From assembly GCA_030158665.1 (NCBI GenBank), contig JAOASM010000050.1:186001-250000 (forward strand): 64,000 nt of DNA. The letters are read 5' to 3'. Below the pieces are notes generated by a model. The model made no database searches, had not been told where the DNA came from, and saw nothing but the letters and a program-made list of their open reading frames with translations. The translations under genes and the position numbers were made by a program. Origin of the DNA: Sediminibacterium sp. (GTDB taxonomy: Bacteria > Bacteroidota > Bacteroidia > Chitinophagales > Chitinophagaceae). Positions 56,768-63,453 of this stretch are shown one piece after another. How positions within the stretch are numbered: the first letter of the stretch is position 1; every line of letters starts with the position of its first letter.

Positions 56768-57469
56768 TTATAAAGTATTGTAGTATTTTACCAAAGCTAT
56801 CAAATCTGCTTCGTTCTTTATGTTTAATTTTTGATCGTTAATGTATTGTTGTAATACCTGACCTTTATCTTGTAACAAATTCAACAAACTAGATTTATCT
56901 TTTTTGATACGGACCATCGCGCCGTCCTTCAAAAGGTATGTATTTTCATAGGTTGCGAATTCTTTGTAGCGCTCTCCAGATAAATCATTATTACGTTCTT
57001 GAATAGTTTTGTATACTGATTTAAGCAAACTTGTTTTGCCATTTAGTAAAATTTGATAAAAAGAGATCCTATTCTGATTGTCAATTGGAGGGAAGCCGCA
57101 TTGAAATACTTGTAAGTCTTGACCAGATTCTTTTGGTAGTGTGTATACCAATTCTGTTGCCATCCCCTTGCCTAAGTAGCCCTCTTGACCATTGGAGGCA
57201 ATAAAATTAACTTCATGTTCTAATAAATTGATTCTTGCTTTTACATCATTAAAGACTCTGCCGTCTTTCAAAGTAATCTTTGCTAATTGATATTCAGCTT
57301 GATCGTAGACTGATCCCGTAATACCATCGTATTTATTGGTAAAAGCTTGACCATTGACATCACTAAGAAAAATCTGCTGGCCCCACTTGCCAGTAGTTGA
57401 AATTGTATTTCTTTGCGCATAGCTTAGGTTTACAATTAAAAACAAACAACACAATAATAGATTTTTCAT
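56768..57469 (-). CDS. secreted protein of unknown function (paralogue of 62749..63453)
   Basis: Signal MKNLLLCCLFLIVNLSYAQ; shares KARINLLEHEVNFIASNGQE, FPPIDNQN, KLNIKNEADLIALVKYYN pattern with 62749..63453. Confidence 0.65.
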   Translation of the reverse strand: MKNLLLCCLFLIVNLSYAQRNTISTTGKWGQQIFLSDVNGQAFTNKYDGITGSVYDQAEYQLAKITLKDGRVFNDVKARINLLEHEVNFIASNGQEGYLGKGMATELVYTLPKESGQDLQVFQCGFPPIDNQNRISFYQILLNGKTSLLKSVYKTIQERNNDLSGERYKEFATYENTYLLKDGAMVRIKKDKSSLLNLLQDKGQVLQQYINDQKLNIKNEADLIALVKYYNTL

Positions 57470-57560: not shown

Positions 57561-59204
57561 TTATTGCTTAGGATTCTTAGTTGGAGCAGAACCTGCTTCA
57601 GCTGGATTGTAAGCTAATTCATTATCTGGAACATCCCAATAGTCTAAGAAACCATAGACGATTGTTGCGTTAGTGTTAACTACACCTGTAGAAGAGATCA
57701 CCACAGCGCCAGTACGAGATTTGTCTGGAGCAATGATATCCCAACGACGAGCATCATAGAAAGACAAGCCTTTGAATGCTAATGCAATTCTACGCTCTCT
57801 TCTTAATTGCTCATAAGCAGCAGCCTGAGTCAAACCAGTACCTAATGCAGCTAAACCTGCACCTTGGTAAGTTCTTACTGCATCAATTGACGCAGCACCC
57901 AAGTCTACTTGACCTGTCATAATCAAAGCTTCCGCTTTCATTAATTCATTCTCTTCGTATGAACCTGCAATTGTAATTTCATTTGCACCAATTACGTTGT
58001 TTGCATAAGTATAAACACCAGTTAAACCAGTTCCTGCATACTTTAAGCTATAACGTGTATTGAATGAATTACCACGGTCAGTGTTGAACAAGCCAACAGA
58101 AGCCAAAGTAATCACGTTTTGATCTTTACGTTTGTCACCTGCAACGAAATCTTGAACCCAACGCTCACTTAATTTATACGTATTTGTTGAACCAGTTGTT
58201 GCAGCTTGACCTACTTTATCAGCTACAGTAGACTCAATGAAACTTCCGTTTGCATCAGTACGTGCAGTAAACACTAAGTCAGTTGCTCTAACCCCATCAT
58301 TCGCTAATGTCAATATATTTGACCATTGAGAAGAAGTCATGCTAGACTTTAATGTATTTACTAAGATGTTACGCGCCTTCATTGTATTGATATTGCGCTT
58401 CCACATATCAATAGTTAAAACACCACCTTTCCCTTTTTGCAAATAAGCTGGAATTAATTTCCCTAGCATAGCTGTGTAATCAGTAGTAGATGTAGCAGCA
58501 CCTAAAGCAGTTACCGCTTTATCAAAATTTGAGCTAGCTTCTGCAATGATTGCTTCTTTAGAAACATACTTACCATTGGTAGAAACTGCATCTGTAGGTT
58601 GGTTTTGGATGATACCTGCATAGTAAGTTGAACCTATTCTGCTGTATGCATACCCTTTCCACCAATATGCCCAAGCTTGGATGGTTGCTTTTTTAGTAGC
58701 AGCCCCAGCACCAGTGAATGTAGTTTTATCTGCCAACTCCAAGATTTTATTTGAAGCAGCAATCATATTGTACATATAAGCCCACTCGTAGAAAGTGGTA
58801 TTACTTCCACCTTGTGCGTTTTGGTTTGCATAACGTACTAATTCATACTGTGTTTTTGGGTTACTTGGATTCAATACAACTGTACCGTTATCCAATGTTA
58901 CCTTATTAGGACAACCAATTTGGTTCATAAAAGCATTCGCAGCTTCTGCACCAATTACATCACCCATCATTTCAGAGAATCCCATAGCGCCAGCCCAGAA
59001 ACGGCCGTAAACACCATCAGAATACTTCAAGTTGTAAAAACCATTCAAGTAAATGGTACCCTGTGCCAAAGCAACTGCACCGTTTTCATTTTGTGCACTA
59101 CTTGGAGTAGGTGAGTTTACGTTGGTAATATCAAGATCTTTCTTACAAGCTGTTAAGCTTAAAGTAACCCCTAATATTCCAACCAAAATTTTATTATTCT
59201 TCAT
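57561..59204 (-). CDS. RagB/SusD-family nutrient-binding lipoprotein
   Basis: Lipobox LSLTACKK; YEWAYMYNMIAASNKILELAD, LRRERRIALAFKGLSFYDARRWDI. Confidence 0.92.
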   Translation of the reverse strand: MKNNKILVGILGVTLSLTACKKDLDITNVNSPTPSSAQNENGAVALAQGTIYLNGFYNLKYSDGVYGRFWAGAMGFSEMMGDVIGAEAANAFMNQIGCPNKVTLDNGTVVLNPSNPKTQYELVRYANQNAQGGSNTTFYEWAYMYNMIAASNKILELADKTTFTGAGAATKKATIQAWAYWWKGYAYSRIGSTYYAGIIQNQPTDAVSTNGKYVSKEAIIAEASSNFDKAVTALGAATSTTDYTAMLGKLIPAYLQKGKGGVLTIDMWKRNINTMKARNILVNTLKSSMTSSQWSNILTLANDGVRATDLVFTARTDANGSFIESTVADKVGQAATTGSTNTYKLSERWVQDFVAGDKRKDQNVITLASVGLFNTDRGNSFNTRYSLKYAGTGLTGVYTYANNVIGANEITIAGSYEENELMKAEALIMTGQVDLGAASIDAVRTYQGAGLAALGTGLTQAAAYEQLRRERRIALAFKGLSFYDARRWDIIAPDKSRTGAVVISSTGVVNTNATIVYGFLDYWDVPDNELAYNPAEAGSAPTKNPKQ

Positions 59205-59228: not shown

Positions 59229-62200
59229 TTAAAATCCTACGTTCAAGCCTAAAGTGTAAGATTTTGTGTTAGGAATAGTATTGTGGTCAAGACCGCGATC
59301 AAATGCTGAGTTCGTAGAATAGTTTACCTCAGGATCCATACCAGTGTAAGGAGTGAAAGTTAACAAGTTACGACCAGATAATACTAATTGTAAACGATTT
59401 GCAAATTTGATTTTAGTCAATTTAGCAATATCAACGCCTACAGAAAGATTTCTTAAACGCCAGAAAGAAGCGTCTTCGTAGAAATAGTTCTTAGTACCAT
59501 TTGCAGCTCCACCAGCATAAACACTTCTATAGAAAGCAGTATAAGCTTGAGTTTCGCCATTGATTGTAACAGGAATGTCATAATCAGAGTGAATACCATC
59601 ACGATACATCCATTGTTTAGTTTGGTTGTACAAGTGTGCTCCTGCAACCCAATCCCATTGCATGTTAAATGTGAAAATGCCTTTGTACTGTAAATTATTG
59701 ATAAAGCTCATGTTGAACTTAGGGTTTGGATCACCTAAACTAGATTGTCCAGGAATCGCTACAGTTTGCTTAGTTGCTTTGTTTACTACCCAACCGTTGC
59801 TAGCCACTTCATATTGAGATCTTGACGCTTCTGGGATAACTGGTAAACCAGTAGCAGGGTTAATATCTGTCAAAGACTTCATTAACTTAAATCCAAAGAA
59901 CTGTCCAATTTTATATCCTTGTTGTAATGTAATACCTACACTACCTGCAGAAGATAATAAAATAACTGGAGGTCCTTTTACATAAGAAATCTCAGAACTT
60001 TGTTGAGAATAATTGGTGATGAAATCCCAGTTGAAATCTTTACCAGAATACACGTTCAAGTTTAATGAAGCTTGTAAACCGCTTGATTTCAAACCAAACG
60101 CATTATCTAATTTACCACCCACACCTGTTGAAGGTGCAGCGTCTACTCTATAAATTGCATTTGCTGTTTCTCTATTCCAGAAAGTAGCAGAAACATTCGC
60201 TGTTTTAAGCCATTGTCCTTTTCCTAAAGTCAAAGTCATATCTGTACCATACTCAGTCTCTTTAGATAACTCAACAGATAAGTTTGGATTTGGATTGGTT
60301 GTAGGGAAAGTGAATACGCTAGATCCACCTAAGTTAGCAGCACCCAACACAGTAAAACGTTGGAACGCACCAGGTTGAATACCCGCTTCACCATAACCAG
60401 CTCTTAATTTAAATTCAGAGATTACATTTGAAATTTTTGAATTCTGCCAGAACTTTAAGTTAGATAAAGTCAAGAAGAAGTCACCTCTAGGGAATGTTTG
60501 TGCAGTTGCACCAGAACCGAACGCAGAAGAGAAGTCACTTCTAACACCCACAGAGAAACCTGTGAAGTTGGAGTACTCAAATCTTTGATTTGCTAAAATA
60601 CCATAAGTTACAAATGGCTCAATATAATCAGTCAATACTTTGTAAGTAGCTGCCTGAGACATGTTCCATGGGGCATAACCTGGACCATCAAAACCAGCTG
60701 CAGCAAAAGACTTTAATTGATTACGACGGTAATCAAATGCAGCAGTTGTGAAAGTTTTTAAAGGAATATTGATATTGAAATCTTTTTCAAAATCCGTACG
60801 GAAATTCACTGTTCCAATAAAGTTTTGGAAAGTTGTTCTGTCTACGAAATTGTTGATCTCACCAGTTGTAAAAGCTGTAGGTGCAGAAGAATAGTTATAC
60901 ATATAACGATTCTGTAACACTCTATTTTTGTTATCCCATTGCTCCGCATACTTATAAGTTGTATTGCTGTTACTATAGTTCAATGCATATTTTGCATCAA
61001 ATTCTAAAAACTTAGGTAACTTATAGTTTAAGTTGAAGCTTTGGATAACGTCCACTGTCGCAATCAAAGTGCTAGACTCTTGATTGGTAGAGAATGGATT
61101 TGAGTGGTTTACACCACCCGCTGCACCAAAATAAGTTGCATACTTTCCATCTTCGTTCTTTTGATCAAACGGCAAGAAAGGACGAGCATTATTGATGGCA
61201 AAAACTACGTTACGGCCAGTTTGGTCATTCAACGTATTTTTTGTGTACACTAACTGAGTGGTGCTAGTAAATTTCAAACCCTTCGCTAATTCAAAACCTA
61301 ATTTAGAAGTTAAGTTAGAACGTGAGAAGTCACCATTGTTGATGAAGTTTGAATTTTGTTGGTTGTTTGAAGCAGAAAATAAGAAGTCAAACTTATCTTT
61401 TGCACCAGACATAGTTACTGAGTTATTCAATGCATAGCTTTGTTGTAAGAACATCTTGTAATGGTCGATGTACTTTAAGTTTGCATTGTAAGGTTTGTTT
61501 TGGTAGCTCGTTACACCTAAAGAGTTGTACTGAACGTCACCATTGTAAACCAAAGTAGAAGGATCTAAAGTCATAATTGCTCCAGAACCAGTCAATACGT
61601 TGTTTTGAGCATCTGTAACAAAGGCATGGTTTTTAGCTTTAGATAAACCACCAATGTTTAATAATTCATTGGTTGTTGCACTTGAGCTAAATTCAATGTT
61701 TACTTTGCCAGCTTTACCTTTTTTAGTAAACAATTGAATTACACCATTCGCACCTTGCGCACCATATAAAGATGCAGCAGCAGCACCTTGTACTACCTCT
61801 ACTCTTTCAATAATGTTTACGTCAATAGAGTTTAAACTTGTTCCACGCGCTTCAATACCATCGATCAAAATCATTGGTGAAGTTCCACCTTGAACAGAGT
61901 TAATACCTCTTAATAAGATTTGTAAAGGACGGCCAGGGTTACCATTGGTACTAGAAATTTGAGCACCAGCGATTTGACCAACCAATTGTTGTCCTACATC
62001 ACCTGTGGGTACTTTAACTTGGCTAGAAAGGTTTACAGATTCAACTGCCACCGCTAACTTCTTTTTACTTGTAGCTGAACCAACACCAGTAACTACAACC
62101 TCGCTCAACGCTTTTACGTCAGAAGTCAATACGATTGTTAAGTTAGCGTTGTTAGCAGATACTTGCTTGCTTTCAAAGCCTAAAGCTGAAATCAATAAAG

Positions 62201-62405
62201 TAGCGCCTTTTTTTACCGAAATTGTAAATGTACCATCATTGCCGGCACTTACACCTTTAGTAGTGCTTTTCTCAAGTACACTTGCTCCGGCAACAGGATC
62301 ATTCTTTTCATCAATAACCTTACCGGTTATAGTAACTGTTTGTGCGAAACCAACCATAATGGTCATTAAGAATGCACAAACACTTACAATGATTTTTTTA
62401 CTCAT
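59229..62405 (-). CDS. SusC/RagA-family TonB-linked outer membrane protein
   Basis: VTITGKVIDEKNDPVAGASVLEKSTTKGVSAGNDGTFTISV, plug NSVQGGTSPMILIDG...GAAAASLYGAQGANGVIQLFTKKGK. Confidence 0.95.
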   Translation of the reverse strand: MSKKIIVSVCAFLMTIMVGFAQTVTITGKVIDEKNDPVAGASVLEKSTTKGVSAGNDGTFTISVKKGATLLISALGFESKQVSANNANLTIVLTSDVKALSEVVVTGVGSATSKKKLAVAVESVNLSSQVKVPTGDVGQQLVGQIAGAQISSTNGNPGRPLQILLRGINSVQGGTSPMILIDGIEARGTSLNSIDVNIIERVEVVQGAAAASLYGAQGANGVIQLFTKKGKAGKVNIEFSSSATTNELLNIGGLSKAKNHAFVTDAQNNVLTGSGAIMTLDPSTLVYNGDVQYNSLGVTSYQNKPYNANLKYIDHYKMFLQQSYALNNSVTMSGAKDKFDFLFSASNNQQNSNFINNGDFSRSNLTSKLGFELAKGLKFTSTTQLVYTKNTLNDQTGRNVVFAINNARPFLPFDQKNEDGKYATYFGAAGGVNHSNPFSTNQESSTLIATVDVIQSFNLNYKLPKFLEFDAKYALNYSNSNTTYKYAEQWDNKNRVLQNRYMYNYSSAPTAFTTGEINNFVDRTTFQNFIGTVNFRTDFEKDFNINIPLKTFTTAAFDYRRNQLKSFAAAGFDGPGYAPWNMSQAATYKVLTDYIEPFVTYGILANQRFEYSNFTGFSVGVRSDFSSAFGSGATAQTFPRGDFFLTLSNLKFWQNSKISNVISEFKLRAGYGEAGIQPGAFQRFTVLGAANLGGSSVFTFPTTNPNPNLSVELSKETEYGTDMTLTLGKGQWLKTANVSATFWNRETANAIYRVDAAPSTGVGGKLDNAFGLKSSGLQASLNLNVYSGKDFNWDFITNYSQQSSEISYVKGPPVILLSSAGSVGITLQQGYKIGQFFGFKLMKSLTDINPATGLPVIPEASRSQYEVASNGWVVNKATKQTVAIPGQSSLGDPNPKFNMSFINNLQYKGIFTFNMQWDWVAGAHLYNQTKQWMYRDGIHSDYDIPVTINGETQAYTAFYRSVYAGGAANGTKNYFYEDASFWRLRNLSVGVDIAKLTKIKFANRLQLVLSGRNLLTFTPYTGMDPEVNYSTNSAFDRGLDHNTIPNTKSYTLGLNVGF

Positions 62406-62441
62406 GTTGTTTTGTTTTGTAATTAAAATTTTCTAAAAATT

Positions 62442-62493
62442 AGAAGGGATGTTTGATAGCAAATTGTGATAAGCGGTAAAAAACATCCCTTCT
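62442..62493 (-). promoter_or_regulatory. perfect 13-bp inverted repeat (26-nt spacer) in susC leader
   Basis: agaagggatgttt ... aaacatcccttct, 36 nt upstream of the susC start. Confidence 0.65.
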
Positions 62494-62748
62494 CTAGACG
62501 AATATAATGAAGATTTAACAATACGATAACTAAAAAACAAACAAAAAAATGACTAAAATCATAACAAACGTTCGCTTCATTTTAACGTTCAGTCATCGAT
62601 GTTGCAACTTTATAAAAAATTGAAAAGTTATATTATTAAACTTAAATAAGGGTAAATGAATTGATTATGAATAGATTAAGTCAAATAACTAGTGTTTACG
62701 ACTTTGACTAAGAATAAAATGTAAATTCATTTTTCAAATAATTGAACC

Positions 62749-63453
62749 ATGAAATTTTTTTACCTATTCATTCTAATTTTTTCAGTAAGCGCTGCACAAG
62801 GTCAAACCTTAAACAATTTCAGTTTAAAAGATATTGGTCAATCGATGTTGGTGGTAACCGATGGTAATGGCAAAACAATTAATATGGGACTTGACATGGA
62901 GAACTATGGCTCTCCGTTTTTTGATACTGAATTTTATCCTGCAGATATTACCTTAATCAGTGGTCAACGATATGAAAATGTCCCGATAAAAATTAATCTA
63001 TTGAGTAACGAAATTATTTTTAAATCAGACAATGGAAAAGAGTTAGCGATACTTCCTGCAATTCAATCCTTATTGCTCAAAAAAAATGGCACTCCATTTT
63101 TATTTGAATATGGCTACCCTGTTTTTGATAAACAAAATGGAAAAACAATTTATCAAGTGTTAGAAAAGGGAGAGATTAGTTTATTAAAATATTATTTTGT
63201 TCAAGTCACAGAAGCAAAGCCATACAGCAGTGCAACCATGCTGAGAACCATTGAAAAATTTCCCAAATTATTTGTGTACAACAAAAACATTGGATTAAAA
63301 AAAGCCCCCAAATCAAACGAAGACATAGCAGAAATTTTTAATGTAGAAAACGAAAGACTGACTAAAATTATTGAATCAAATAAATTAAAAATAAAAAAAG
63401 AAGAGGACCTGATAAAGTGCATCCAACACTTCAATCAACAAATTAAAAAATAG
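62749..63453 (+). CDS. secreted protein of unknown function (paralogue of 56768..57469)
   Basis: Signal MKFFYLFILIFSVSAAQGQ; VPIKINLLSNEIIFKSDNGKE, YPVFDKQN, KLKIKKEEDLIKCIQHFN. Confidence 0.65.
   Translation: MKFFYLFILIFSVSAAQGQTLNNFSLKDIGQSMLVVTDGNGKTINMGLDMENYGSPFFDTEFYPADITLISGQRYENVPIKINLLSNEIIFKSDNGKELAILPAIQSLLLKKNGTPFLFEYGYPVFDKQNGKTIYQVLEKGEISLLKYYFVQVTEAKPYSSATMLRTIEKFPKLFVYNKNIGLKKAPKSNEDIAEIFNVENERLTKIIESNKLKIKKEEDLIKCIQHFNQQIKK

Follow-up and report, generated by a model that had tools for sequence, protein, structure and literature searches.

The window analyzed here is a 64,000-nucleotide stretch of DNA from Sediminibacterium sp. that carries, on its minus strand, a susC-susD-p233 operon. 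The leader of this operon contains a hairpin whose shape has been kept in orthologous leaders while its sequence has changed. Comparison of those leaders gives good support to the view that structure has been conserved over sequence, by way of compensatory changes. The hairpin probably serves the RNA as a cap or as a control element, rather than being a chance palindrome. The explanation that we favor most, and to which we give about an even chance of being right, is that it stands at the 5' end of the susC-susD-p233 mRNA and would protect it, much as a hairpin protects the ompA mRNA of E. coli.

The inverted repeat and its fold

The original prediction drew attention to a 13-bp repeat with a 26-nt loop, its stem ending 36 nt before the susC ATG, and its coordinates prove to be exact. 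The arms, AGAAGGGATGTTT (62442-62454) and AAACATCCCTTCT (62481-62493), are 100% complementary across the 26 nt between them. Read 5' to 3' as RNA from the minus strand, the order is AGAAGGGAUGUUU ... AAACAUCCCUUCU-AAUUUUUAGAAAAUUUUAAUUACAAAACAAAACAAC-AUG. The features of the locus are these (lineages I and II are described below):

62499-62506, minus strand: predicted Bacteroidota sigma-A -7 box TATATTCG, matching TAnnTTTG in all but one base
62442-62493, minus strand: predicted 5'-terminal hairpin, with a 13-bp perfect lower stem topped by a 26-nt apical region that is weakly paired within (from folding, and from the shape and compensatory changes in orthologues)
62481-62493, minus strand: 5' arm of the stem, RNA AGAAGGGAUGUUU (repeat search)
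62455-62480, minus strand: apical region UUUACCGCUUAUCACAAUUUGCUAUC, with UUUACCGCUUAUCA common to lineage I leaders with small changes (leader comparison)
62442-62454, minus strand: 3' arm of the stem, RNA AAACAUCCCUUCU (repeat search)
62433-62486, minus strand: 17-codon open reading frame MFFTAYHNLLSNIPSNF within the hairpin, unlikely to encode a functional leader peptide (a start of the type M[IF]FTAY[HQ]N in 5/7 lineage I leaders, nothing comparable in lineage II)
62406-62441, minus strand: A/U-rich linker between stem and susC ATG, for the most part unpaired in predicted folds; probable ribosome-entry region without a Shine-Dalgarno sequence (folding; orthologue spacing)
59229-62405, minus strand: susC-like TonB-dependent receptor gene, 3' of the hairpin (Pfam CarbopepD_reg_2 and Plug)
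57561-59204, minus strand: susD-like lipoprotein gene, next in the operon (Pfam SusD_RagB; synteny kept in orthologues)
56768-57469, minus strand: p233 (233 aa), conserved third gene of the operon (no Pfam match; found after susD in orthologous loci with enough downstream sequence)

The sense RNA of the leader folds with a predicted energy of -19.4 kcal/mol (z = -4.9), and none of 200 shuffled sequences was equally stable. The claim that chance would not give so long a repeat is good for this one spot. It fails genome-wide. In 1.03 Mb of the organism's own sequence (54% of the genome), no perfect inverted repeat other than that of susC reaches 13 bp with five or more GC pairs and a loop of 13-60 nt; first-order Markov random sequence of the same length delivers 0-2 such repeats, or about one per Mb. 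The length of the repeat is notable for one leader but within chance for the genome, and is not decisive alone. The argument must therefore rest on comparison and conservation.

Side by side with susC, a divergent gene of 234 aa (62749-63453, plus strand) lies upstream. Its product and that of p233 look like distant paralogues; reciprocal tblastn searches match each to the other's locus with about 25-30% identity, and the 234-aa gene, like p233, has no Pfam match.

The promoter and the predicted transcript start

In Bacteroidota, the -7 consensus is TAnnTTTG, and the box lies at -12 to -5 (PMC9723704). Combining this known position with the box at 62506-62499 gives 62494 as the predicted +1. 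A single base would then precede the stem, making the hairpin 5'-terminal, with its stem beginning at about +2. All 17 orthologous leaders that we compared have the TATATT of the box unchanged, between -94 and -105 relative to the ATG (L011 has two boxes, of which the second, at -92, was taken). In these orthologues, the first paired base falls at about -1 to +5 relative to the predicted start. No -33 box was recognised upstream of susC.

A hairpin kept while its sequence changes

The 17 orthologous leaders came from relatives and from named genome contigs, and the SusC proteins that they precede are 76-97% identical. Where the relatives are named, they are metagenome-assembled genomes of Sediminibacterium and of other Chitinophagaceae, some with freshwater names (Lake Baikal, for example). 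One susC orthologue, L018 (G031:C452), is read in two frames, split near residue 592, either by a frameshift or by an assembly error.

About 15 of the 17 leaders hold a hairpin of 40-58 nt in the same slot, with a different stem sequence and with 30-42 nt between stem and ATG. Folded one by one, 15 of them give z values of -2.2 to -6.4. The hairpin is weak in L011 (z -1.8) and poor or absent in L073.

The stem sequences fall into two main lineages. Lineage I contains the window and six close relatives; these have stems of the GGGAUG or GGAAUGAU type and a common ACCGCUUAUCA loop. Lineage II contains nine leaders, most with stems of the form AAGCUUGUAA...UUACAAGCUU. Here, the lower stem contains GCUUGU in all nine and GCUUGUA in all but one, while the upper stem varies freely. 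On the SusC tree, the early branches carry lineage II hairpins, and a single lineage II hairpin (L083) appears within the lineage I clade. When the window and L071 are compared with L083, the lineage II hairpin of the latter sits between promoter and ribosome-entry flanks nearly identical to the window's. This may reflect either an exchange of the module in place or its retention.

Conventional alignments did not deliver evidence of covariation. RNAalifold found no pairs in a plain MAFFT alignment of the 17 leaders, and a covariation count on a second MAFFT alignment (A2, nine leaders) did not rise above shuffles. These tests were null because the alignments place the arms out of register. For this reason, per-sequence folds and an alignment-free arm swap were used instead.

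Across eight lineage II leaders, both sides have changed and the pair has been kept at 13 of 27 paired positions, including all seven core positions of the upper stem; in six lineage I leaders, the figure is 8 of 27. Because each leader was counted on the fold predicted for it, these figures are biased in favor of pairing. In the arm swap, each 5' half was joined to a foreign 3' half, and the mean energy went from -18.6 to -9.9 kcal/mol. Permutations as stable as the true pairing numbered 0 of 20,000 overall, none in lineage II and 109 of 20,000 in lineage I; these figures are not strict probabilities, because the sequences are related, and leaving out L073, which lacks the hairpin, slightly favors the result.

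Two findings that the original prediction had set down as telling against it, a transcript start between hairpin and ATG and a lack of covariation in homologues, have not turned up: judged by the conserved -7 box, the hairpin should be part of the transcript, and both the compensatory changes and the arm swap speak for pairing. Its suggestion of a structured leader is upheld: most orthologues have a hairpin in this position, with stems that differ in sequence. In a covariance search, model R1 recovers the lineage II leaders and does not recover those of lineage I; outside lineage II, its one match with a good E-value among the relatives is a terminator (L183).

Could such a palindrome persist with no selected function, as a chance repeat or as one held near perfect by template-switch (quasi-palindrome) mutagenesis? 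A repeat this long does arise by chance about once per Mb, and template switching can yield paired changes without selection. Further, G-U pairs outnumber A-C mismatches on the sense strand in lineage II only (10 vs 3), and overall the comparison is unclear (11 vs 7), so that the wobble counts give only mild support to a structure at the RNA level. Against it stands a position that stays fixed between promoter and start codon in orthologues whose SusC proteins are 76-97% identical, as does a two-part architecture whose upper stem turns over freely. We regard this reading as very improbable.

A reading at the level of DNA is, in our estimate, more improbable still. Here, the repeat would be a site for a dimeric regulator or a recombinase. 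A perfect inverted repeat close to a promoter is just what such a site would look like, and Bacteroides is known to have invertible promoters (PMC7366714 mentions them). Yet both arms have been replaced between orthologues 95-97% identical, the spacing of the arms varies, and an operator would not explain the covariation in the upper stem. As for an invertible switch, the common loop of lineage I is found in one orientation, and the repeat does not enclose the promoter. A dispersed repeat was also considered and rejected; the AAGCTTGTAA pattern is not dispersed in the genus.

Termination and attenuation

The original prediction offered the hairpin as a conditional terminator. Under that reading, the transcript would meet an intrinsic terminator within its first few tens of bases, to be overridden under inducing conditions. 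Several leaders have the necessary look. In four of the 17 (L083, L078, L080 and L081), U6 directly follows the 3' arm, and these would pass as terminators; the window's own stem is followed by AAUUUUU. Moreover, the intrinsic terminator at L183 (G013:C64) in a relative, AAGCCTGTAAC...GTTACAGGCTTTTTT, resembles the stem of a lineage II leader. The leader hairpin may have originated from a terminator-like palindrome of this kind.

Against attenuation, the U-tract is not conserved; the other 13 leaders have U-runs of 3-5. The median tail score of the leaders is about 3.3, compared with 4.56 for the genome's own hairpin terminators, a reference built from its short-loop hairpins, the majority of which resemble terminators. 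A hairpin that starts at about +2 leaves no room upstream for an antiterminator partner, and no antiterminator was visible among the downstream alternative pairings, which were looked at in part. The short reading frame in the hairpin is not conserved across orthologues, and its lack of a lineage II counterpart makes a leader-peptide attenuator unlikely. With its tail and its position both unfavorable, the conditional terminator becomes quite unlikely.

Nor is the hairpin the terminator of the upstream gene, a candidate rejected because the orientation of the upstream neighbor changes while the hairpin stays. Some of those neighbors are divergent (about 235 or 190 aa) and others codirectional (538 or 718 aa), at 228-341 nt from the ATG.

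Structured leaders are, of course, familiar in this phylum. Flavobacterium psychrophilum has 64 structured 5' regions (PMC9723704), and the susC leader resembles them in being a structured Bacteroidota mRNA 5' region behind a TAnnTTTG-type promoter, here a predicted one. Unlike those leaders and attenuators, the susC hairpin has no Rfam match, no conserved leader peptide and no conserved U-tract, and is found only in this susC clade.

A proposed protective hairpin at the 5' end

What we favor, then, is a hairpin that stabilizes its mRNA. Transcription would start at 62494, and the stem, from about +2, would close the 5' end of the mRNA in a helix. The roughly 36 nt of mostly unstructured, A-rich leader that follow would stay free for ribosome entry. 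A 5' end buried in a stem should be a poor substrate for decay enzymes that sense 5' ends (RppH-type pyrophosphohydrolase, RNase E/G and perhaps RNase Y). The transcript of a presumably abundant outer-membrane transporter would, in turn, live longer, as does that of ompA in E. coli.

The enzymology behind this proposal comes from elsewhere. RppH and RNase E require a single-stranded 5' end, which accounts for the stabilization of E. coli mRNAs by 5' structures (PMC3997798). Genes for RNase E/G and RNase Y are present in the genome studied here; RNase J was not detected in the assembly, which is about 90% complete. In predicted folds, the mean unpaired probability is 0.49-0.70 over the last 30 nt of the leader and 0.14-0.43 in the hairpin zone. 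A mostly unpaired A-rich region ahead of the ATG, as predicted here, is to be expected where initiation does without a Shine-Dalgarno sequence. It also speaks against the earlier suggestion that the hairpin masks the leader.

The parallel with ompA, and also with papA (Emory, Bouvet and Belasco, 1992, as cited in PMC3997798), lies in the architecture as that source cites it: the leader of an outer-membrane protein mRNA has a stem-loop at or within a few nucleotides of the 5' end, and then a single-stranded ribosome-binding region. In susC, the 5' end is predicted. The susC hairpin differs in that it is not homologous to that of ompA; it follows a Bacteroidota promoter, has no Shine-Dalgarno sequence, and is one long stem with an inner helix.

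Two observations sit less comfortably with a stabilizer. L073 has a poor hairpin and L011 a weak one. Further, a plain stabilizer has no need of the GCUUGUA kept in the lower stem of lineage II or of the loop kept in lineage I, which suggest possible sequence-specific recognition.

These conserved sequences are the chief argument for a different reading, in which a protein (an RbpB-like RNA-binding protein, for example) or an sRNA would act on the stem or loop to raise or lower the translation or decay of susC. In lineage II, it is the lower stem that is held while the upper stem is free to vary; in lineage I, it is the ACCGCUUAUCA loop. In B. thetaiotaomicron, the FopS sRNAs and RbpB do act on susC mRNA 5' regions (PMC11697453), and the susC leader here would share with these a post-transcriptional control, putative in this case, at the 5' region. 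There, however, the sRNA binds near the start codon (PMC11697453), whereas what is conserved in the present leaders is a hairpin placed at the 5' end. No single binding motif covers all of the leaders, since the conserved sequences differ between lineages, and the members of lineage I are close relatives. We hold a bound regulatory hairpin to be unlikely, if worth weighing.

A bolder proposal would make the hairpin a member of an undescribed cis-acting RNA family in the susC operons of freshwater Chitinophagaceae, a replaceable 5'-terminal module exchanged in situ between promoter and ribosome-entry region and bound by a partner in Bacteroidota mRNA control. Searches of Rfam gave no family match at gathering score. 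This proposal we offer as a tentative possibility.

How widely the element occurs

Most leaders of susC paralogues in the organism's own genome, when folded, lack a comparable hairpin. It is likewise absent from the distant homologues L012, L013, L016, L020 and L022 and, by eye, from L084 and L098. Thus, the element is mainly a feature of this operon's clade, and not a general susC device. One paralogue leader, L052 (C7:138k), folds well (z -3.8) with another fold, a GTTAACTTAACGTTAAC palindrome and a AGGGGCAACCCC hairpin before the ATG.

Three more distant susC homologues (L009, L010 and L015, 46-66% identity) have a different predicted hairpin near the likely 5' end, of the form AGCCU-loop-AGGCU with an outer helix of the UUUAGG/CCUAAA type. 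Their predicted folds suggest that 5' hairpins arose independently on related susC genes.

A scan of the same 1.03 Mb for -7 boxes found 76 strict boxes, and the susC hairpin is among the strongest that follow them. At least two other strong hairpins after these boxes look like terminators of upstream genes. A strong predicted hairpin, GTAATAAGGTGC...AACCTTATTAC, lies 3' of a TAATTTTG box upstream of the gene at C50:45386-46021 (minus strand); it is perhaps another 5' hairpin, perhaps a terminator.

A narrow look at the open-access literature found no description of a cis-acting 5' stabilizer in Bacteroidota, and little is known of how these bacteria keep the mRNAs of SusC-type transporters abundant. 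The susC hairpin is a defined and compact element, and its natural variants, with their different stem sequences, provide a ready test of structure against sequence.
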